In this document: positions 23,221 through 35,640 of the stretch, in pieces
How the letters are laid out: each line of letters begins with the position of its first letter
Position numbering within the stretch: position 1 is the stretch's first letter
DNA from: an uncultured beta proteobacterium
Lineage (GTDB): Bacteria; Pseudomonadota; Gammaproteobacteria; Burkholderiales; Burkholderiaceae
Direction of reading: 5' to 3'
Assembly (NCBI GenBank): GCA_903909925.1
Contig: CAIVXR010000224.1
Location: 1-45,046, forward strand
DNA: 45,046 nucleotides
Notes under the pieces: model-generated
What the model saw: the letters and a program-made list of their open reading frames with translations, nothing else
Told to the model about the DNA's origin: nothing
The model's database searches: none
Translations under genes and position numbers: made by a program

Positions 23221-23446
23221 TTTTGTCACCCCTGAAAAGGTTTTAAAGAACTTCAAGGCTGGAATGAATACGCAGGAAATGGCTGTTGTGTTTAATATAC
23301 CGGAATACACAGTTTACTGGCTGCTGAATAATGCGAGGGAGCAAGAGCGTGAAAATTCAAATAATTCTGCCCTTGCCGCCAAGCGTAAACAGGCTGTGGA
23401 GATCGGGGAAGGGCGGGAAAGTCTATCGCTCCCCGAAATACACTGA
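23213..23446 (+). CDS. small HTH-like protein
   Basis: MTNFVTPEKVLKNFKAGMNTQEMAVVFNIPEYTVYWLLNNAREQE...; 3' end overlaps the RusA gene by about 98 bp in another frame. Confidence 0.5.
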   Translation: MTNFVTPEKVLKNFKAGMNTQEMAVVFNIPEYTVYWLLNNAREQERENSNNSALAAKRKQAVEIGEGRESLSLPEIH

Positions 23447-23723
23447 ATGGCGTAACCCAGCTTTATGGTCGGCAGCCATCCAGGCCAAAAAGCAAACCAT
23501 CGAAGGTCCTTACAAATTGACCTTGTTGGCAGTCAAGCCAGACAAGCGCCATAGAGATTTAGACAACCTATTCAAAGCCGCTAGTGACGTTTTGGAAGGC
23601 GCAGGGGTAGTTAGCAACGATGCTAACTGTATGTGGATCGAAGCGAGATGGGTTCCCTCTGGGCCGCAATGCACTTTAATCGTTGAATCATTAGAGGGTG
23701 AATCTAATGGGGAAGAGAAGTGA
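23349..23723 (+). CDS. RusA-family Holliday junction resolvase (GTG start)
   Basis: VKIQIILPLPPSVNRLWRSGKGGKVYRSPKYTEWRN...KPDKRHRDLDNLFKAASDVLEGAGVVSNDANC. Confidence 0.85.
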   Translation: MKIQIILPLPPSVNRLWRSGKGGKVYRSPKYTEWRNPALWSAAIQAKKQTIEGPYKLTLLAVKPDKRHRDLDNLFKAASDVLEGAGVVSNDANCMWIEARWVPSGPQCTLIVESLEGESNGEEK

Positions 23724-24234
23724 TTTTGAGCGGAAAGGCATGGATTTCTATCCAACCCCCATGGATGCCGTCAAGCCTTTGATCAATCGGTTAAGGCGGA
23801 ACGCAACCTTCTGTGAGCCGTGTGCGGGTGAGGGGCATCTGGTCCGCCATCTGGAGGCATTAGGCCATCAATGCGTGTCTAAGTTTGACGCCCAGCCTAG
23901 ATCTCCTGATATACGCCAGCAAGATGCTTCATGGATAACAAGTAAAGATATTAACAAGGCGGATTTAATCATTACCAACCCGCCATGGGATCGACCACCG
24001 CTCCATCAGATCATCGAAAGATGTGCAACTTTAGCACCGACATGGCTGCTCTTTGATGCCGATTGGATGCATACCCGACAGGCCGCTCCGTTCCTGCTGA
24101 TGTGCGAGGAAATCGTGTCTGTAGGCAGGGTGAAGTGGATCGAAGGGTCCAGCATGGCTGGAAAAGACAATTGCTGTTGGTATCTTTTTGATGCCAGCTT
24201 TCACGGGTTTCCAAAGTTTTACGGTAAACAATGA
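23707..24234 (+). CDS. SAM-dependent DNA adenine methyltransferase-like protein (NPPW)
   Basis: MGKRSDFERKGMDFYPTPMDAVKPL...FCEPCAGEGHLV...DLIITNPPWDRPPLHQII. Confidence 0.75.
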   Translation: MGKRSDFERKGMDFYPTPMDAVKPLINRLRRNATFCEPCAGEGHLVRHLEALGHQCVSKFDAQPRSPDIRQQDASWITSKDINKADLIITNPPWDRPPLHQIIERCATLAPTWLLFDADWMHTRQAAPFLLMCEEIVSVGRVKWIEGSSMAGKDNCCWYLFDASFHGFPKFYGKQ

Positions 24235-25240: not shown

Positions 25241-25294
25241 GAAGAGGAACTAGAGCTTGAGCATGGGCTTGAGCTTAACCGTAGGAATAGAACC

Positions 25295-26773
25295 GTGGAA
25301 CTGAGAACATACCAAAACGATGCAATAGCCAAGCTAAGATCTTCCTTGGCGGCTGGACACAAGCGGCCTGTGATCCAAGCACCCACCGGATCGGGTAAGA
25401 CCGTGATTGCCGCTGCGCTGGTCCAGATGGCCCGTGCCAAAGGGAACCGAGTGCTGTTCTGCGTCCCAGCCATCGAGCTGATCGACCAGACTGTCGAGCG
25501 GTTTGCCAGAAACGGGATACACGAGGTTGGGGTCATCCAAGCCAACCACGAGATGACCGACTACCGCCAGCCAGTCCAAGTCTGCTCGGTCCAGACCCTG
25601 AGCCGCCGTGACATCCCGATGGCTGACATGGTGATCCTCGATGAGGCCCATGTGCGGTTCAAGCTGTACGAGCGTTGGGTTGATCTGCCTCAGTGGCAGA
25701 AGATCCCGTTTGTTGGTCTGACGGCTACCCCGTGGTCCAAGGGCATGGGCAAGATCTTCGACGATCTGATCATTGGCGTCACCATGCAGGAATTGATCGA
25801 CCAAGGCCACCTATCGGATTTCAGGGTTTACGCTCCAGCGCATCCTGACCTGAGCGGGGTCAAGACGGTTTTGGGCGATTACGAGATCAAGGGCCTTGGC
25901 AGCGCCATGAACAAAAACGCTTTGGTGGCCGACATCGTCTCGACTTGGCTGGAGCGGGGCGAGAACAGGCCAACCCTGTGCTTTGCGGTCAATCGGCTTC
26001 ACGCCAAAAACATCCAGATGCGTTTCGAGGAGGCTGGCGTTTCCACGGGATACGTCGATGCCTACACCGAGCGGGAAGAACGCAAGGAGCTGGCTGACAA
26101 GTTCGCACGGGGCGAGATCAAGGTTGTCTGCAACGTGGGCGTCCTGACCACAGGCGTTGATTGGGATGTTCGTTGCCTGATCTTGGCGCGGCCAACCAGA
26201 TCAGAAATACTGTACTGCCAGATTATCGGGCGGGCATTGCGTCCGGCTGATGGCAAGGATCACGCCCTGATCCTCGATCACAGCGACACCACGCTGCGGT
26301 TGGGATTTGTCACGGACATTTCCCACGACAAGCTCGATGACGGCTACACGAGCAAGGGCAAAATCGAGAAGGTTGTGCCGCTGCCCAAAGAGTGTCCCAA
26401 GTGCGCGTTCCTCAAGCCGCCCAAAACACGCCAGTGTCCAGCTTGCGGGTTTTTGGCTGAACCCGTGAACAAGATCGAGAACGATGCGGGTGAGCTGCTG
26501 GAGCTGACACGGGACAAAAAACAGAAATCCCAGAAATTCACCATGATCGAGAAAATCAGTTTTTATTCCGAGTTGCTGTGCTATGCGCGGTCCAAGGGCT
26601 ACGCCGACGGTTGGGCCTATTGGTCCTACAAGGATAAATTCGGGGTTGCCCCGTCGATCAAACCCATGGCGGCCCTCGAATGCTCGCCAGCGACGATCTC
26701 GTGGATCAAACACCGCAACATCGCTAAGGCCAAGGCTCGTGAGAAAGCGGGACTGTCGAGGCAACGTGCATGA
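25295..26773 (+). CDS. SF2 DEAD/DEAH-box helicase
   Basis: APTGSGKT, DEAH (ILDEAHV), GLTATPWS, IIGRALRPADGK. Confidence 0.9.
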   Translation: MELRTYQNDAIAKLRSSLAAGHKRPVIQAPTGSGKTVIAAALVQMARAKGNRVLFCVPAIELIDQTVERFARNGIHEVGVIQANHEMTDYRQPVQVCSVQTLSRRDIPMADMVILDEAHVRFKLYERWVDLPQWQKIPFVGLTATPWSKGMGKIFDDLIIGVTMQELIDQGHLSDFRVYAPAHPDLSGVKTVLGDYEIKGLGSAMNKNALVADIVSTWLERGENRPTLCFAVNRLHAKNIQMRFEEAGVSTGYVDAYTEREERKELADKFARGEIKVVCNVGVLTTGVDWDVRCLILARPTRSEILYCQIIGRALRPADGKDHALILDHSDTTLRLGFVTDISHDKLDDGYTSKGKIEKVVPLPKECPKCAFLKPPKTRQCPACGFLAEPVNKIENDAGELLELTRDKKQKSQKFTMIEKISFYSELLCYARSKGYADGWAYWSYKDKFGVAPSIKPMAALECSPATISWIKHRNIAKAKAREKAGLSRQRA

Positions 26774-27696
26774 AGATCACCGACGCAGCCAATGGCAAGT
26801 GGCGTGAACTCCTGCCAAACTTCGGCTATCACCCCCCGTCCAACCCAAAGCTCCACGGTCCATGCCCTTTTTGTGGCGGCAAGGATCGGTTCCGGTTTGA
26901 TGATCGGGATGGGACAGGCTCGTGGTTCTGCAACCAATGCGGCAGCGGGGATGGGATCGACATGGTTCGGAACCTGACAGGCAGGACCTTCACCGAGGTC
27001 CGGCTCGAATTGTTCAAAATCCTCAAGATTGACCCCGGCCCACCATCCAATGGACCATCAGACCTCGATACCAAGTTTAAAATAGCTCTAGAAAGAGTTT
27101 GGAGTGGGGCTACATTCGCGGAAGCGACCAGTCCGCTGGGTATGTACCTGAAGAAAAGAACTGGCATCAGTGAGCCTCCTAAAGGCCTGCGCTATCACGC
27201 TGGGTTATTCAACCCCTCGGTCCAGTCCAGACTGCCAGCCATGGTTGCCAAAGTTGCCAGTGCGGAAGGGAGGGCTGTTAACCTGCATTGCACGTTCCTC
27301 ACCCATGGTGGCGAGAAGGCAGACGTCAGTCCAGCCAAGCGGGTTATGCGCGGTCCATTGCCGGATGGGTGTGCTATCCGCCTCGGTCCAGCTGCCCGTG
27401 TTATGGGAATAGCTGAAGGGATCGAGACAGCATTGAGTGCCTCGGTCCTTCATAGGATGCCAGTCTGGGCAGCGGTCAATGGGAGCCTGTTGGCCAAATG
27501 GACGCCACCGGATACTGCCAAAGAGATTTATGTTTTTGCCGACAATGATCAGAATTACACAGGCCAGTCCAAGGCTTATGCACTAGCTAACAGGCTGTCA
27601 GTCCAACACAAGCTATCAGTCCACGTTATGTTGCCGCCAATGCAGGGACATGACTGGAACGATCACCACAGGGTTATTCTGGAGGCAATGCCTTGA
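26770..27696 (+). CDS. phage primase with zinc ribbon and TOPRIM-like domain
   Basis: CPFCGGKDRFRFDDRDGTGSWFCNQCGSGDGIDMV; GIAEGIETALSASVL; VFADNDQNYTGQ; HDWNDHHR. Confidence 0.85.
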   Translation: MKITDAANGKWRELLPNFGYHPPSNPKLHGPCPFCGGKDRFRFDDRDGTGSWFCNQCGSGDGIDMVRNLTGRTFTEVRLELFKILKIDPGPPSNGPSDLDTKFKIALERVWSGATFAEATSPLGMYLKKRTGISEPPKGLRYHAGLFNPSVQSRLPAMVAKVASAEGRAVNLHCTFLTHGGEKADVSPAKRVMRGPLPDGCAIRLGPAARVMGIAEGIETALSASVLHRMPVWAAVNGSLLAKWTPPDTAKEIYVFADNDQNYTGQSKAYALANRLSVQHKLSVHVMLPPMQGHDWNDHHRVILEAMP

Positions 27697-27700
27697 CCTT

Positions 27701-27862
27701 GGTCCACCCTTGGTCCATTGTGATCAAGCCGTAATTCGTTTGCGGCAAACCCGAAACTGACTAGGGGGCAGCAATGCCCTCTTTTTTTTGTCCTCGGTCC
27801 ACCAGTCCATCAGTCCATCAGTCCAACGGTCCACCCTCGGTCCAACGGTCCAACGGTCCAAC
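27701..27862 (+). repeat. short-period direct repeats of (G/A)GTCCA downstream of the primase gene, mostly 8-bp spacing
   Basis: (G/A)GTCCA at 27796, 27804, 27812, 27820, 27828, 27839, 27847, 27855, plus GGTCCA at 27701 and 27712. Confidence 0.85.
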
Positions 27863-27941
27863 GCCAATGGAATTAGCCAAAGCGATTGCTGCCGATCGGC
27901 AACGCCTGGTCAGAACACAACAAAATTGCAGACAAAAAAAA

Positions 27942-27966: not shown

Positions 27967-28128
27967 GTGGTGTCCTTTGCTTTTAGGTAATGTTGCCATG
28001 CTTTTTAAGATAAGCAATAGAATCAGGCCTAAAAATAAGATAGCTTTAAGAAAAGCCCATAAATACTGCTTTATTGTGCCATGGGATTGGTTCCTTCTAT
28101 TAGGGGATTGCGGGCTATATATGACAAT

Positions 28129-28195
28129 TTGACACCTGACAAGCTGGCATGATAGGATTCCCGTATGGTCAAGACTTAGCTATAGCTTGGCCATA
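28129..28195 (+). promoter_or_regulatory. candidate promoter TTGACA-N18-TAGGAT followed by imperfect palindrome TATGGTCAAG-N12-CTTGGCCATA
   Basis: TTGACA 28129-28134, TAGGAT 28153-28158, palindrome arms 28164-28173 and 28186-28195 (9/10 match). Confidence 0.5.
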
Positions 28196-28219
28196 TAAAG
28201 CAATCGAAAGGAATCTATC

Positions 28220-29629
28220 ATGTTTAATGTTATAGACTTAGAATCCGCGCAGATTGTCGGAGTCAATTTCGAGACTGGCGAACAAGCTGCTAGCTTTGCG
28301 CGTCAGTATTTTGAAAGCACTGGCAAAAAGGCACAAGTGCGAGTCATGATAAATGATGACTGGCAAAAGCGCGAGCAATTGAGATTCGAGTCTGGTGATT
28401 ACTTGCCCGTAGCATGGCACAAATCATCATTCTGGCTCGATAATCAAGAGATTCACAAATTGCACTTTGCGCACAGATCGAAAATAAAGGACTCCTGCAT
28501 TGCTTACACTGAATCGCCAGAGAAAGGGACACAGGACAGACAGACTCGCATAAAAGCTGGCGCTTATCTCACGAAATATTTCAGTCACATTCTAAACGAG
28601 TCGCAAATAAATTATTATGCACGACTCCACACCGCAATATCAGGTGATCTAGAGTCGACAATTAAAATAGCAATAACAGCGAACGAAATTGAGCAGGTTT
28701 ATATAAACGGACCTGAATCGTGCATGGCTTACAGTGCTAGCGACTTTGAAGGTCACTGTCACCCCGTTAGAGTCTATGGGGATTCAGACTTACAGCTTGC
28801 TTACGTAGAAAGGCAATCTGACTATCATGACAAGCCTATTGCGGCGCGTGCCTTGATCTGGCCGGATCGGAAAATTTACGGGAGAGTCTATCCGACTCCT
28901 GAGCGTTATAGTGATGACAAGCGCACAATCGCAAGAGCCGAATATTCGGCACTGATCACAGCTCTGGAGTCGCTTGGTTATACGTCTGGCAGATTTGACG
29001 GCGCAAAGATTCAAAAGATTGAAAATAACAATCGTCGCGGCGGATATATTATGCCTTATCTGGACGGGACTCAAGGCATTGATGATATTGGCAGCTATTT
29101 TCTGATCACATCAAATGGCGATTATAGCGCCACAGAAACAAGCGGACTCGTTTCAGAAAGAAGCGCTTTCACGTGTGAGCATTGTGGCGATGATTGCAGC
29201 GAAGAGGATTCTTCAATTGTAAACGTAACAGCGAGTCGTAGCACTGAGTCATGGTGTGAGCATTGCGCCAGCAGCCATACTTTCCATTGCAATGGTTATG
29301 ACGAAATTTTCTCTGAGTATGTGGATTCAATTGTCGCGGATGATGACTGCATTTACTCATCGCGCTACGCTGAACGAAATTTGGAATTCTGCGCGAGAAC
29401 CGAGTCTTTTATCGTCACCGAATCTGTGGATCAAGTAAACACTGCAAACGGAACCGAACAATGGTGCGATTCTGCAATTTCGGACCATGCTTTCTGGTGC
29501 AATCGCAACGACTCGTACTATTGCAGTGATGATTTCGAATCCGTCGAAATTGATGGTTTGAGATATGAAAAGCAAAGCGCAATCAACGCTGGCCTATTAG
29601 TCGAAGAGTCCGAATCTGAATCAGTCTAA
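28220..29629 (+). CDS. uncharacterised 469-aa protein with Cys-rich, probably metal-binding C-terminal half
   Basis: CEHCGDDC...WCEHCASSHTFHCNGYDEIFSEYV...FCARTESFIVTESV...WCDSAISDHAFWCNRNDSYYCSDDFESVEI. Confidence 0.75.
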   Translation: MFNVIDLESAQIVGVNFETGEQAASFARQYFESTGKKAQVRVMINDDWQKREQLRFESGDYLPVAWHKSSFWLDNQEIHKLHFAHRSKIKDSCIAYTESPEKGTQDRQTRIKAGAYLTKYFSHILNESQINYYARLHTAISGDLESTIKIAITANEIEQVYINGPESCMAYSASDFEGHCHPVRVYGDSDLQLAYVERQSDYHDKPIAARALIWPDRKIYGRVYPTPERYSDDKRTIARAEYSALITALESLGYTSGRFDGAKIQKIENNNRRGGYIMPYLDGTQGIDDIGSYFLITSNGDYSATETSGLVSERSAFTCEHCGDDCSEEDSSIVNVTASRSTESWCEHCASSHTFHCNGYDEIFSEYVDSIVADDDCIYSSRYAERNLEFCARTESFIVTESVDQVNTANGTEQWCDSAISDHAFWCNRNDSYYCSDDFESVEIDGLRYEKQSAINAGLLVEESESESV

Positions 29630-29644
29630 TTTGGGGGATTTATC

Positions 29645-30604
29645 ATGTCTTATGCAAACACAACGAAAACACAGCCTGACACGCAAACACTATGGGACAT
29701 GCTGCAAACAATGCGACCTGCTGGCAGCAACGCAGAGAAAGCATTCATAAAAAAGCATATAGATTCGATCAAAGGTATAAAGCACGACTCTTATGGGAAT
29801 CGTTATATTCGCATCGGCAAAGCGCCAGTCGCTTGGTCATGTCACACTGATACAGTTCACAAGCAATCGGGCAATCAGCGGATAGTATACAATAAAAATA
29901 AAGGCCTTATTGCCCTATCTCAATTTGAGAAACAGGCCAATTGCCTTGGTTCGGACGACACTGCTGGAGTCTGGCTCATGCTTGAGCTGATTAAACACAA
30001 AAAAGAAGGGCTTTATATATTTCATCGCGCTGAGGAGATTGGCGGATTAGGTTCGGACTATATCTCAAAAAAGACTCCTGAGCTTGTCGACGGAATCCAG
30101 ATCATGATTGCTCTTGATCGCAAAGGCACGGACTCGATCATAACGCATCAAATGGGTGGCCGCTGCGCCAGTGATGCTTTTGCCGCGAGTCTGGCAAATC
30201 AGCTGCAAGGTTATCGGGCGGATTCTACTGGCTCATTCACGGACTCTGCAAATTATACAGGCCTGATTCCAGAATGCACTAATCTAAGTGTAGGTTATGA
30301 ATCAGCACACAGCTCGCAGGAGTCTTTAGACTATTTTCATCTGATAGGCCTCAGGGATTCATTGCTGGCGCTGGATTACAGCAAATTGATAATTGAGCGG
30401 ACTCCTGCGATTGATGATTATGACGACTCTTATTGGCGAGCTGGCGCGTATAGCGCAAAATGGACCGATACGCCCGTCGCTGGCAGAGATTGCCGCTCGA
30501 TTTATGACTTCTGTGAATCCTATCCTGATATTGTGGCTGATTTGCTTGAACAATATGGGATCACTTTGCAGGATTTATACGACTCCGCGCCATACGTTAA
30601 CTGA
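29645..30604 (+). CDS. M20/M28/M42-like zinc metallopeptidase
   Basis: SCHTDTVH, CLGSDDTAGVWLMLELI, FHRAEEIGGLGSDY, ALDRKGTD, YESAHSSQESLDY: metal ligand and catalytic pattern of this superfamily. Confidence 0.75.
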   Translation: MSYANTTKTQPDTQTLWDMLQTMRPAGSNAEKAFIKKHIDSIKGIKHDSYGNRYIRIGKAPVAWSCHTDTVHKQSGNQRIVYNKNKGLIALSQFEKQANCLGSDDTAGVWLMLELIKHKKEGLYIFHRAEEIGGLGSDYISKKTPELVDGIQIMIALDRKGTDSIITHQMGGRCASDAFAASLANQLQGYRADSTGSFTDSANYTGLIPECTNLSVGYESAHSSQESLDYFHLIGLRDSLLALDYSKLIIERTPAIDDYDDSYWRAGAYSAKWTDTPVAGRDCRSIYDFCESYPDIVADLLEQYGITLQDLYDSAPYVN

Positions 30605-30656
30605 GCGAGAATTGATGAAACAGCGATAAAATCGGATAAATTCACTTCCGAATAAC

Positions 30657-30687
30657 AGGCTGGGGAGCAATCTCCAGCCTTTTTTTG
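30657..30687 (+). terminator. rho-independent terminator with GCAA tetraloop
   Basis: AGGCTGGGGA-GCAA-TCTCCAGCCT-TTTTTT. Confidence 0.9.
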
Positions 30688-30804
30688 TGTCTTAAAGCAC
30701 TGTATTATTTGGATATTGAGATAAAAAGACCAGGCGATTCATGGTGCAAAGTAAACGGATTAAATCAGGCAAATTGAGCGATTCTATAAATCAGGGACAA
30801 GGCA

Positions 30805-31536
30805 ATGAACAAGGCAAGAGCTGTGCCAGATCATACGCTGGCAGCAAATGAGACTGAGCAAGGCAAAGCGCAAGGCAAGCCAGCTAAGGTCAAAAAGCCT
30901 ATTGAGCAACGAGTCAGGTTCTCAGGCGCAGAGTTAAGACAAGAGCTGCAAAAGAGACTGCCAGAAGTGAAGGCTAAACGTGTCCCTGCTAGTGAAGTGC
31001 TTATGGGAAGGCCAAGCACATACGATCCTGCAATAGGCGAGACAATACTAAACCTTATGAGTGAAGGTATGACTCTCACAGAGGCTTGTGATCATTTAAA
31101 GATTAAACGTAGCACTGTGTATAGTTGGGCAGAAAAGAGACAAGACTTCTCGGCAATTCTCGCACGCGCCAAGCTCGCTCTTGCGGAGCATGCTTTCACG
31201 CAAGCTCACCTAATCCCTAAAAAGCTTTATGAATCAGCGCTAAACGGGGAAGAGCTATCTGGCCCAATGGTAGCAGCCGCTAGACTCTACACTGACTCTC
31301 TCAAATGGTATGCCGAACGGTTGAACCCGCGAGACTATGCTCAGCAATCAAAGCAAAGCATTGAATTGACAGGCAAGAATGGCGGTCCGATCCAAACAAC
31401 GGCGCTTGTGTTTGACTCGCGTGACCTATCGCCGGAGGCAAGAGACGCTTTGCGCCTTGCTCTCATGTCCGCAAAGCCCAATGAAATCAATGACTTAGAG
31501 GCTATTGACGTGACGCCTGAAGCTGAGGAAGACTAA
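30805..31536 (+). CDS. terS: terminase small subunit-like
   Basis: GRPSTYDPAIGETILNLMSEGMTLTEACDHLKIKRSTVYSWAEKRQDFSAILARAKLALAEHAF...DSLKWYAERLNPRDYAQQ. Confidence 0.75.
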   Translation: MNKARAVPDHTLAANETEQGKAQGKPAKVKKPIEQRVRFSGAELRQELQKRLPEVKAKRVPASEVLMGRPSTYDPAIGETILNLMSEGMTLTEACDHLKIKRSTVYSWAEKRQDFSAILARAKLALAEHAFTQAHLIPKKLYESALNGEELSGPMVAAARLYTDSLKWYAERLNPRDYAQQSKQSIELTGKNGGPIQTTALVFDSRDLSPEARDALRLALMSAKPNEINDLEAIDVTPEAEED

Positions 31537-33054: not shown

Positions 33055-33650
33055 AAGCAATTATTCCTGCCCTGGCGGCCATGGCCTGTATGTCGATCGG
33101 TACTTGGGCCTTCGAGGGAGATGACAATCCCGCAATCTTTGCACAACGAGACAAAATGGGATGGGGCAAGCAATCTGAAAACTTTGCCGGATATGGCTGG
33201 GTGGATTCTATGACCAAGAACCGCCAACAGGTTGCTCAGGAAATTGCCACCAAGGTACGATCCCGCATGGGAGCTGAATGGGTAGAACCAGCACTGAAGA
33301 TTGCTAAAATAGAAAGCGGATACAGCTGTGACGTAAAAGGTCCCAAGACTGCTCATGGTAGAGCTGTCGGGCCTCTACAGGTCTTGGTCGGTAGTGCTGA
33401 AAGTCTGGGTATTAGTGCATATGAGTTGAATTCATCTTGCACAGCCCAGATCGAAGCTGGCGTCCGGCATATGGAACGGTGCGTTAAACTGGGAGCTAAA
33501 ACAGCCGCCCAGATGGCATCATGCCATGTGTCAGGCAATCCGTTCAATAAGAAGCTGACCCGTAAAGCAGAACGCTATCGCCAGAAATACATCAAGATGG
33601 CAATGGCAGCAAAAGTGCCTACATGGGTAGGAACGCTCTATTACTGGTAG
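33048..33650 (+). CDS. SLT-type lytic transglycosylase with N-terminal signal
   Basis: GTG start: MKQAIIPALAAMACMSIGTWAFEGDD...EPALKIAKIESGYSCDVKGPKTAHGRAVGPLQVLVGSAESLG. Confidence 0.7.
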   Translation: MKQAIIPALAAMACMSIGTWAFEGDDNPAIFAQRDKMGWGKQSENFAGYGWVDSMTKNRQQVAQEIATKVRSRMGAEWVEPALKIAKIESGYSCDVKGPKTAHGRAVGPLQVLVGSAESLGISAYELNSSCTAQIEAGVRHMERCVKLGAKTAAQMASCHVSGNPFNKKLTRKAERYRQKYIKMAMAAKVPTWVGTLYYW

Positions 33651-33655
33651 GCACA

Positions 33656-35425
33656 ATGGGTATCGTTACAATAGATGGGGTGGATGTGGATCTGGATCGG
33701 CAACTTGCTGATTTGGACCGCGCCGACTGTGAAGACAGCCTGTATAAGTTCCTGCAATACGCTTGGAAATATATAGACTCTAGCACCTTTACCAACGGCT
33801 GGCCCATTGAAGCTGTAGCTGAACACCTTCAAGCGGTAACAGACGGGGATATTAAAAAGCTTATTATTAACATCCCGCCGCGTTGCGCCAAATCATCTCT
33901 GGTGTCTGTAGCCTTTCCTGCATGGGTTTGGGGTCAGCCCCGTATCTGGGACAGCCCGACTTCAGGGCCAGGTGTGCAGTTCCTTCATGCGTCTTATGCT
34001 CAGCAGCTTTCTCTCAGAGACAGCACCAAATGCCGCCGCCTGATTGAAAGCCCGTGGTATCAGCAGCTATGGGGTGATCGGTTCAAGCTCAGCTCGGATC
34101 AAAATACCAAAACCAGATTTGATAATGACCAATCAGGGTCCCGCCTGGCAACCTCCGTAGGGTCCGCCCTGACGGGTGAAGGTGGTAATATCATTGTTGT
34201 TGACGATCCCAACGCCGCCCAGGAAGCTTTCTCCGAAGCAACCATTCATTCAACTATTGAATGGTGGGATACAGCCCTGTCTACCCGTCTTAACGATCCC
34301 AAGACAGGCGCGTTTATTGTTATTCAACAAAGGCTGTCAGAAGAAGACCTGACTGGTCATATCCTATCCAAGAACAGTGATGACTGGGTGCATCTCTGCT
34401 TGCCTATGCGTTACGAATGGAAAAGACATAGTTACACTTCTATTGATTGGAACGACCCAAGAGGCATGGATACCCAAGGTAATCCCCTGGTGGCCATTGA
34501 CCCTGACGGCAATCGTATACCTGTCAGCATGGAAGCCGAGAAAGAACTGGAGCGTAGGGAAGGAACCCTGCTTTGGCCTGAGCGTTTTGATGCCCGTGTG
34601 GTTGATAGTCTGGAGAAAGAACAGGGTCCTTGGACCTTTGCAGGGCAGTTCCAGCAACGCCCGGAACCAAAAGGCGGCGGTATCATCAAATCCGACTGGT
34701 GGCAGCCATGGCAAAACGAAGAATATCCGCCTATGGACCTGATTATTGCCACGCTAGATACAGCCTATACAGCCAAAACCCAGAATGATCCCTCCGCCAT
34801 GACGGTATGGGGAGTGTTTACGGGTGCAAAAGCCGAAATGTCCAATAGATATATCAACAAGAACAATAAAAACCGCGATAGTGAAACCCAATCTGCCTTG
34901 TTTGATGATGCAGTAGGGACAAAGTTTGGTCGCAGATACACCGAAAACTCAGCCCCCAAAGTTATGATGATGAATGCCTGGGAGGGTCGGTACGAGCTGC
35001 ACCAGCTTGTGCTGAAAGTTGCCCAGACATGCCGTGCCATGAAGGTAGATCGGCTCCTGATCGAGAATAAAGCTGCCGGACATAGCGTGGCACAAGAGAT
35101 ACAGCGCCTATACGGTTATGAAAACTTTGCCGTCCAGCTCTATGATCCTAAATCTCAGGACAAATTAGCCAGATTGCACTCTGTAGAGCATCTGTTTGCT
35201 GAAGGAATGATCTTCGCACCCAATAAACAATGGGCCGAGATGGTCATCAATCAGGTCTCCCAGTTCCCTAAAGGCAAACATGATGACTTGGTAGATACCG
35301 TCTCCATGGCATTAAGGCATTTACGCGAGAGCGGGGTATTGGTAAGGCAGGTTGAATGGACATCAGACATGGAGTCATCCATGATGTTCAAAGGCAACAC
35401 TACTGTCCCTCTATATCCGGTTTGA
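33656..35425 (+). CDS. terL: terminase large subunit
   Basis: LIINIPPRCAKSSLVSVAFPAWVWG; GEGGNIIVVDDPNAAQEA; RLNDPKTGAFIVIQQRLSEEDLTGHIL; C-terminal nuclease-like DTAYTAKTQNDPSAMTVWG, GKHDDLVDTVSMALRHLR. Confidence 0.95.
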   Translation: MGIVTIDGVDVDLDRQLADLDRADCEDSLYKFLQYAWKYIDSSTFTNGWPIEAVAEHLQAVTDGDIKKLIINIPPRCAKSSLVSVAFPAWVWGQPRIWDSPTSGPGVQFLHASYAQQLSLRDSTKCRRLIESPWYQQLWGDRFKLSSDQNTKTRFDNDQSGSRLATSVGSALTGEGGNIIVVDDPNAAQEAFSEATIHSTIEWWDTALSTRLNDPKTGAFIVIQQRLSEEDLTGHILSKNSDDWVHLCLPMRYEWKRHSYTSIDWNDPRGMDTQGNPLVAIDPDGNRIPVSMEAEKELERREGTLLWPERFDARVVDSLEKEQGPWTFAGQFQQRPEPKGGGIIKSDWWQPWQNEEYPPMDLIIATLDTAYTAKTQNDPSAMTVWGVFTGAKAEMSNRYINKNNKNRDSETQSALFDDAVGTKFGRRYTENSAPKVMMMNAWEGRYELHQLVLKVAQTCRAMKVDRLLIENKAAGHSVAQEIQRLYGYENFAVQLYDPKSQDKLARLHSVEHLFAEGMIFAPNKQWAEMVINQVSQFPKGKHDDLVDTVSMALRHLRESGVLVRQVEWTSDMESSMMFKGNTTVPLYPV

Positions 35426-35427
35426 AA

Positions 35428-35640
35428 ATGCAAAGAGTTCTAGCAAATGCCATAGTTGACGTCCTTCAGGAGCCTACTCCCTTCACAATGGGTAAGTTCG
35501 AGATCAAAGTCTGGGGTAAAGAACCCTATGATTATGTTCGGCACTATGAAATCTCAGCAAAAACAGATACAGTTGCTGCTCAAGAAGGTCTTCGACGGTT
35601 TGTTGAAGAGATGGAGCAGCTTGACCCTGCAAAGGACTGA
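35428..35640 (+). CDS. hypothetical small protein
   Basis: MQRVLANAIVDVLQEPTPFTMGKFEIKVWGKEPYDYVRHYEISAKTDTVAAQEGLRRFVEEMEQL; between terminase and portal genes. Confidence 0.6.
   Translation: MQRVLANAIVDVLQEPTPFTMGKFEIKVWGKEPYDYVRHYEISAKTDTVAAQEGLRRFVEEMEQLDPAKD

Follow-up and report, generated by a model that had tools for sequence, protein, structure and literature searches.

Clusters of GATC at E. coli oriC are read by SeqA, and GANTC controls replication in alphaproteobacteria. The pac site of phage P1 is a 161-bp element with seven GATC hexamers that needs Dam methylation, and a methyltransferase, Dmt, is encoded by the phage itself (PMC10028697, PMC12707154). Many phages encode GANTC methyltransferases, whose part in the viral cycle is an open question (PMC5537653, PMC7139368). 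Published work has described the enzymes and speculated on control of replication; small phage methyltransferases with an NPPW/F/Y motif, encoded upstream of replication genes, are reported to protect DNA from HinfI, which makes them GANTC-specific (PMC5537653). Our literature search found GANTC depletion in phages as well as GANTC methyltransferases, and no report of islands such as those described here.

The locus under study lies in the window, the whole 45,046-nt stretch of DNA that was analyzed. It resembles the P1 pac/Dam pair in that a cluster of adenine-methylation sites sits beside packaging genes, partly in coding sequence, and in that the phage, as P1 does with Dmt, encodes a methyltransferase whose specificity, judged by its sequence family, probably matches the sites. 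Unlike P1 pac, the cluster spans kilobases and holds tens of sites, its gene content varies, the sites have no hexamer context and are scarce in the rest of the genome, and phages can lose the zone yet retain the terminase. The locus shares with E. coli oriC a dense set of adenine-methylation sites by iteron-like repeats at a possible origin. In contrast to oriC, the sites extend through 1.5–4 kb of cassette genes, and the origin role is putative. The methyltransferase itself matches phiLM21 p027 and the 179-aa Paracoccus enzymes in size, NPPW motif, place by replication genes and probable host range (PMC5537653). A dense matching target zone, as found here, was not found reported for the published phage GANTC methyltransferases. 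Pelagiphages are likewise alphaproteobacterial phages that avoid GANTC; the accessible part of that report describes depletion only (PMC9516812), whereas we find local enrichment.

The GANTC island of the window

The window contains 117 GANTC sites, of which 55 are spread over the 41.7 kb outside the island (Table 1). The original prediction had placed an extreme island on a two-gene unit, and its counts for the two genes (33 and 18) were exact; 52 sites lie in 28211–30585 (GAATC, 12; GACTC, 14; GAGTC, 15; GATTC, 11). The location was real and drawn too narrowly, since the island reaches into the small terminase (TerS) gene and noncoding DNA, the latter with 5 sites. The sharp contrast with the flanks was reproduced (no site in 25262–27720 and two in 33656–35640), and avoidance elsewhere in the genome, also predicted, was borne out: outside the island, 55 sites were observed where composition predicts 161, approximately one third. 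For genes A and B together, the zero-order expectation is 9.1 against 51 observed. Positions that could encode GANTC were used in 33 of 46 cases in gene A, as opposed to 0/43, 2/48, 8/150, 4/64 and 7/91 in other genes.

The enrichment obeys the GANTC rule, as had been proposed. The four variants are about equally frequent, and all three reading frames contribute sites. Among palindromes with half-sites of 2–3 bp and gaps of 0–8 bp, GANTC was the sole strong outlier (z 27, next 8), and it ranked first of 256 xyNzw patterns under codon shuffling (z 9.4, next 5.3). In the synonymous codon shuffles that had been suggested as a check, the observed counts were never reached, either for gene A (33 versus a mean of 16.6 and a maximum of 24 in 1000) or for gene B (18 versus a mean of 9.8 and a maximum of 14 in 1000). 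With the junction dinucleotides also fixed, gene A remained above all 1000 shuffles (maximum 31); gene B fell within the shuffled range (maximum 19) because its codon choice already bears the GANTC bias. Gene A is rich in Asp-Ser and Glu-Ser dipeptides, which could suggest a by-product of codon or amino-acid composition. The codon shuffles rule this out, frames 1 and 2 are also used, noncoding DNA is enriched too and island-free homologues have few of these dipeptides, so that we give the idea virtually no credence. Across the islands, no consistent spacing periodicity or helical phasing, common flank preference or GcrA-type consensus was seen, and use of the GcrA-type motif YGAKTCG was inconsistent.

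An AlphaFold model of the gene A product (pLDDT 81) had no PDB match at E ≤ 0.001, and its top matches in a viral fold library were uncharacterized phage proteins only. Conservation in the divergent gene A alignment was too low for a profile search. A terminal repeat was looked for in the window and none was found. Direct repeats border the island in the window, L017, L016, L018, Roseobacter phage CRP-6 and L009 (L numbers denote our loci), and few are present at the islands of L050, L088 and L119. Near the island, the relatives L017, L016 and L018 carry CCCATAATGG-type repeats spaced by 19 bp. These and the GGTCCA repeats of the window are candidate iterons of a phage origin.

Table 1. Features of the window (coordinates in nt)
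Feature	Coordinates	Strand	GANTC sites	Remarks
RusA-like Holliday junction resolvase	23331..23723	+		adjoins methyltransferase gene
DNA methyltransferase	23698..24234	+		178 aa; phrog_799; NPPW motif; candidate GANTC writer
DNA helicase	25295..26773	+	0	
Primase	26770..27696	+	0	
Iteron-like direct repeats	27701..27868	.		GGTCCA units, 8-bp spacing; candidate origin/operator; left island border
GANTC island	28020..31414	.	62	3.4 kb (18/kb); coding and noncoding
Gene A	28220..29629	+	33	469 aa; phrog_6980-like
Gene B	29645..30604	+	18	319 aa; zinc peptidase-like; phrog_4191
Small terminase, TerS	30805..31536	+	6	Sf6-like; PF20901
Large terminase, TerL	33623..35425	+		

Place, gene content and turnover of islands in related phages

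Homologues of genes A and B are adjacent, as a two-gene module, in other phages, including Drulisvirus, Phimunavirus, Rhizobium phage Pasto and Bradyrhizobium phage BDU-MI-1. In five genomes of cultured phages that were examined, the module is not enriched in GANTC. When 80 IMG/VR loci picked by the peptidase were scanned, strong islands were found in L014–L018, L050/L051 and L088; another lies in L095, from a pond alphaproteobacterial MAG, and in L007/L009 a strong island covers gene A and the intergenic region. In an unbiased palindrome scan of the module, GANTC ranked first in the window, L017, L009, L016, L018, L050, L088, L015 and L014. Many phages have gene A and peptidase homologues that lack the enrichment (Pasto, BDU-MI-1, Drulisvirus, Phimunavirus and phages of the CRP-6 type without the methyltransferase). 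Because such homologues exist and islands also lie on unrelated genes 5′ of TerS, the original view of the island as a property of the two-gene unit does not hold, and we rejected both the peptidase and gene A as its determinant.

Islands are found 5′ of the TerS gene across at least three types of terminase and with differing cassette genes: gene A plus peptidase, MoxR plus a VWA metallopeptidase, or GP88/DUF7227. Two occupy the interval from primase to TerS, like that of the window, one on MoxR and DUF2201/VWA genes (L127) and one on a GP88-like gene (L119). Others cover a GP88-like gene in L155 and DUF7227 in L163, and there is a further island in L180. In CRP-6, a cultured Roseobacter phage, the density reaches 25 sites per 1.5 kb at 43.2 kb, adjoining the terminase, over a GP88-like gene and noncoding DNA. 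In islands of the CRP-6 type, noncoding DNA is at least as dense in sites as coding DNA (13.2 versus 9.8/kb). A single dominant GANTC peak was present in 7/7 contigs (L017, L016, L009, L180, L198, L018 and L163), and in the six that reach the terminase it starts within ~4 kb 5′ of TerS. The site cluster thus adjoins or overlaps the small terminase gene, as a P1-type pac site does.

Loci were also gathered by TerL alone, blind to islands; these contigs were not dereplicated. At 67 loci with a CRP-6-type TerL, GANTC reached 7.5–14.2/kb at −3500 to −500 of TerL and was mostly 0.2–2/kb beyond the peak, while seven control palindromes were flat at 4–6/kb. The 30 loci with a window-type TerL gave a weaker peak, 4–7/kb at −5000 to −2500, over ~1–3/kb in most other bins. 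Pooling 16 islands gave 14.0 versus 1.42 GANTC per kb, a 9.9-fold enrichment, and the next of 256 patterns reached 2.1-fold. Some islands share a minor enrichment of CGCG/GCGC. GANNTC is depleted inside the pooled islands (1.40 versus 3.44/kb).

The individual sites turn over. Relatives at 41–44% identity share 7–9 of the 33 gene A sites at homologous positions, and L050/L088 share 3–4. Nine aligned gene A homologues have 121 distinct GANTC positions, 76 of them in a single genome only. Gene A homologues with an island have 11–21 Asp/Glu-Ser dipeptides, where 7–9 are expected; island-free homologues have 1–4, where 3.4–6.3 are expected. The DNA motif has therefore pulled the protein sequence along. 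Selection raised and kept the GANTC density of the zone, whatever genes lie inside, and selection for a 5-bp DNA motif was strong enough to reshape a protein.

The phage methyltransferase and loss of the island

The window methyltransferase bears EPCAGEG and NPPW motifs and fits phrog_799, whose members combine NPPW/F/Y with a SAM-binding motif in ~180–220 aa. Its gene occupies the expected place upstream of the replication cluster, in the order RusA, methyltransferase, helicase, primase. Nearly all of the 48 phage records that match it have alphaproteobacterial hosts. It is 47% identical to DSS3P8 AMO44073, which appears in an alignment of putative or confirmed GANTC members (PMC5537653). With the phiLM21 enzyme, which has been assayed, it shares 24% identity (E 0.017), a weak match, and it is because of this distance that we call GANTC specificity no more than likely. 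The link to alphaproteobacterial GANTC methylation made in the original prediction is likewise probable, given the ties of this enzyme family to GANTC (PMC5537653). No CcrM-like (PF01555) methyltransferase was found in the island phages.

Binning had placed the contig in a 1.8-Mb genome from a genus mostly without a CcrM signature. Relatives of its TerL, methyltransferase and module point to alphaproteobacterial hosts, from which we infer that the host of the window phage is probably alphaproteobacterial; the contig may be in the wrong bin. It has no tyrosine integrase. A temperate versus virulent life style was rejected as a predictor of islands, since this integrase is absent from the island contigs tested and from nearly all island-free contigs with the methyltransferase.

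The island and the methyltransferase gene co-occur. Wherever a contig with a strong island extends to the methyltransferase position, the gene is there, and both are present in the window, L016, L018, L050, L009, CRP-6, L198, L316, L231, L234, L236 and L237. In the island-free L292 and L291, gp23 runs straight to MazG, a clean absence of the methyltransferase gene from its usual position between the two; island-free L320 also lacks it. The co-occurrence gave 4/4 versus 2/39 in a Fisher test (p 1.2e-4), a value that, we stress, overstates independence because the phages are related and the metagenome contigs were not dereplicated. L027, with a weaker GANTC enrichment and no methyltransferase detected, may be an exception. 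L017 had been considered as another and was rejected: the contig begins at the island and has no helicase, primase or methyltransferase match, and without a replication module it is uninformative on this point. The L286 contig stops just short of the methyltransferase position. The methyltransferase alone is not sufficient for an island. GB2A, LagS-V1, RHph_N3_2 and Mel-JY03 carry the gene without one, as do most methyltransferase loci sampled, and phiLM21, whose enzyme is distant, has no island either. In Caulobacter phage GB2A (L338, 56743–60070), the methyltransferase gene, gp095c, is flanked by two genes that both carry a large-terminase annotation, and TerS is adjacent; the 48 kb of GB2A examined contained no GANTC island.

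Members of the CRP-6 clade that have gene A and the peptidase in the zone (L274, L291, L292, L295, L304, L305, L318, L320, L325 and L327) have no island. L291, L292 and L295 nest among island phages in the TerS and TerL trees, with ~90–95% identity to them in flanking DNA, and L286 and L292 are ~88–92% identical on either side of the swapped cassette. The island has been swapped out with the cassette inside one terminase clade and is therefore dispensable. A P1-type pac site goes with its terminase, whereas here closely related TerS and TerL proteins occur with and without the island.

Candidate roles of the zone and minor observations

We favor, tentatively and with slightly less than even confidence, a reading in which the island is a cis-acting, methylation-addressed control zone set where the replication/early genes give way to the terminase genes, with methyltransferase and zone as writer and target. 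The zone would be the target of the phage's own GANTC-type methyltransferase, helped by host CcrM, and its sites would be methylated in the cell. Freshly replicated DNA would pass through a hemi- or unmethylated state. A reader of this state, for which the terminase, a replication initiator at the bordering repeats and host GcrA are candidates, could then use the zone to choose between continued replication with early expression and late expression with packaging. The logic would be that of P1 Dam/pac at kilobase scale, and the reader need not be the terminase. Of the roles offered in the original prediction, a methylation-sensitive switch, a sink for GANTC-binding factors and a replication-timing cluster are still candidates. 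The constraints are that GANTC density alone is kept, that there is no rule of spacing or flank, that genes and their orientation are irrelevant and that loss of the cassette can take the zone with it. That the pair acts as a kilobase "replication-age" sensor, a gene-independent, optional module that is swapped among phages and reads the number of methylated sites, is a specific proposal that we regard as somewhat unlikely. That related phages with a probable GANTC methyltransferase bear the island even on different genes suggests an epigenetic control region, written by the virus, of a kind not described before. A dense zone that co-occurs with a probable GANTC methyltransferase offers a concrete cis target for the question of what these enzymes do, and a cultured phage, CRP-6, carries both. 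For phages known from metagenomes, such islands also offer an easy way to spot methylation-addressed regions from sequence.

The strongest rival is that bulk GANTC titrates host GcrA or CcrM and upsets the host cell-cycle programme, with the sites gathered where essential phage genes are undisturbed. The irrelevance of gene, orientation, spacing and flank, the avoidance of GANTC in the rest of the genome and the co-occurring methyltransferase would all suit such a sponge, as GcrA binding is methylation-dependent (PMC3667746). A sponge could lie anywhere in the genome, however, the window's other accessory regions are practically without sites and YGAKTCG is not consistently used, and we consider this reading unlikely. 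We doubt still more a strict P1-like pac, in which TerS would bind methylated GANTC to start packaging and the zone would be the packaging initiation region. It would account for islands adjoining TerS in several terminase types, one of them (in the window) Sf6-like; P1 pac, with its required Dam methylation, is a precedent, and the GB2A methyltransferase gene sits within terminase genes. Yet P1 pac does not extend over kilobases, GB2A is island-free, and the exchange of the island along with its cassette, beside an unchanged terminase type, weakens the reading, as L291, L292 and L295 illustrate.

A restriction decoy, luring GANTC nucleases to expendable DNA at the leading end of the injected genome, is improbable. 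Half of the pelagiphages are GANTC-depleted, which suggests past restriction (PMC9516812), and the junction of replication and terminase genes is plausibly near a genome end. A cut in the zone would still break the genome, though, GANTC avoidance persists in phages that bear the methyltransferase, and a GANTC nuclease was not identified. The original prediction had also offered a module evolved in another genome. Derivation of the zone from a GANTC-rich gene pool, or from mutational bias, fits the travel of the island with its cassette and the minor CGCG/GCGC enrichment common to some islands. We disfavor it as very improbable: only GANTC is strongly common to the unrelated cassettes, homologues of the same genes elsewhere are not enriched, individual sites come and go at a maintained density, and no source genome rich in GANTC was seen. 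The Asp/Glu-Ser dipeptides gained by the proteins also speak against it. The preferred reading remains a control zone written by the phage's methyltransferase.

In phages free of GANTC islands, no other palindrome served as a module motif in a general pattern. ATAT/TATA is enriched in the module region of L020/L021, and L010 has short tandem repeats with GAATAT-type units at 1–300. In Rhizobium phage Pasto (L001, 1450–4557), an ArdA-like antirestriction gene precedes the gene A/peptidase pair close to the left end of the genome, a neighborhood hinting at an early counter-defense role for the pair. Around the peptidase module of L087, CGNCG (45 versus 8 expected), GCGC (43 versus 9.8) and CGCG (46 versus 11.4) are enriched, and this motif set may form a comparable island, addressed by a methyltransferase that acts on cytosine or in some other way.
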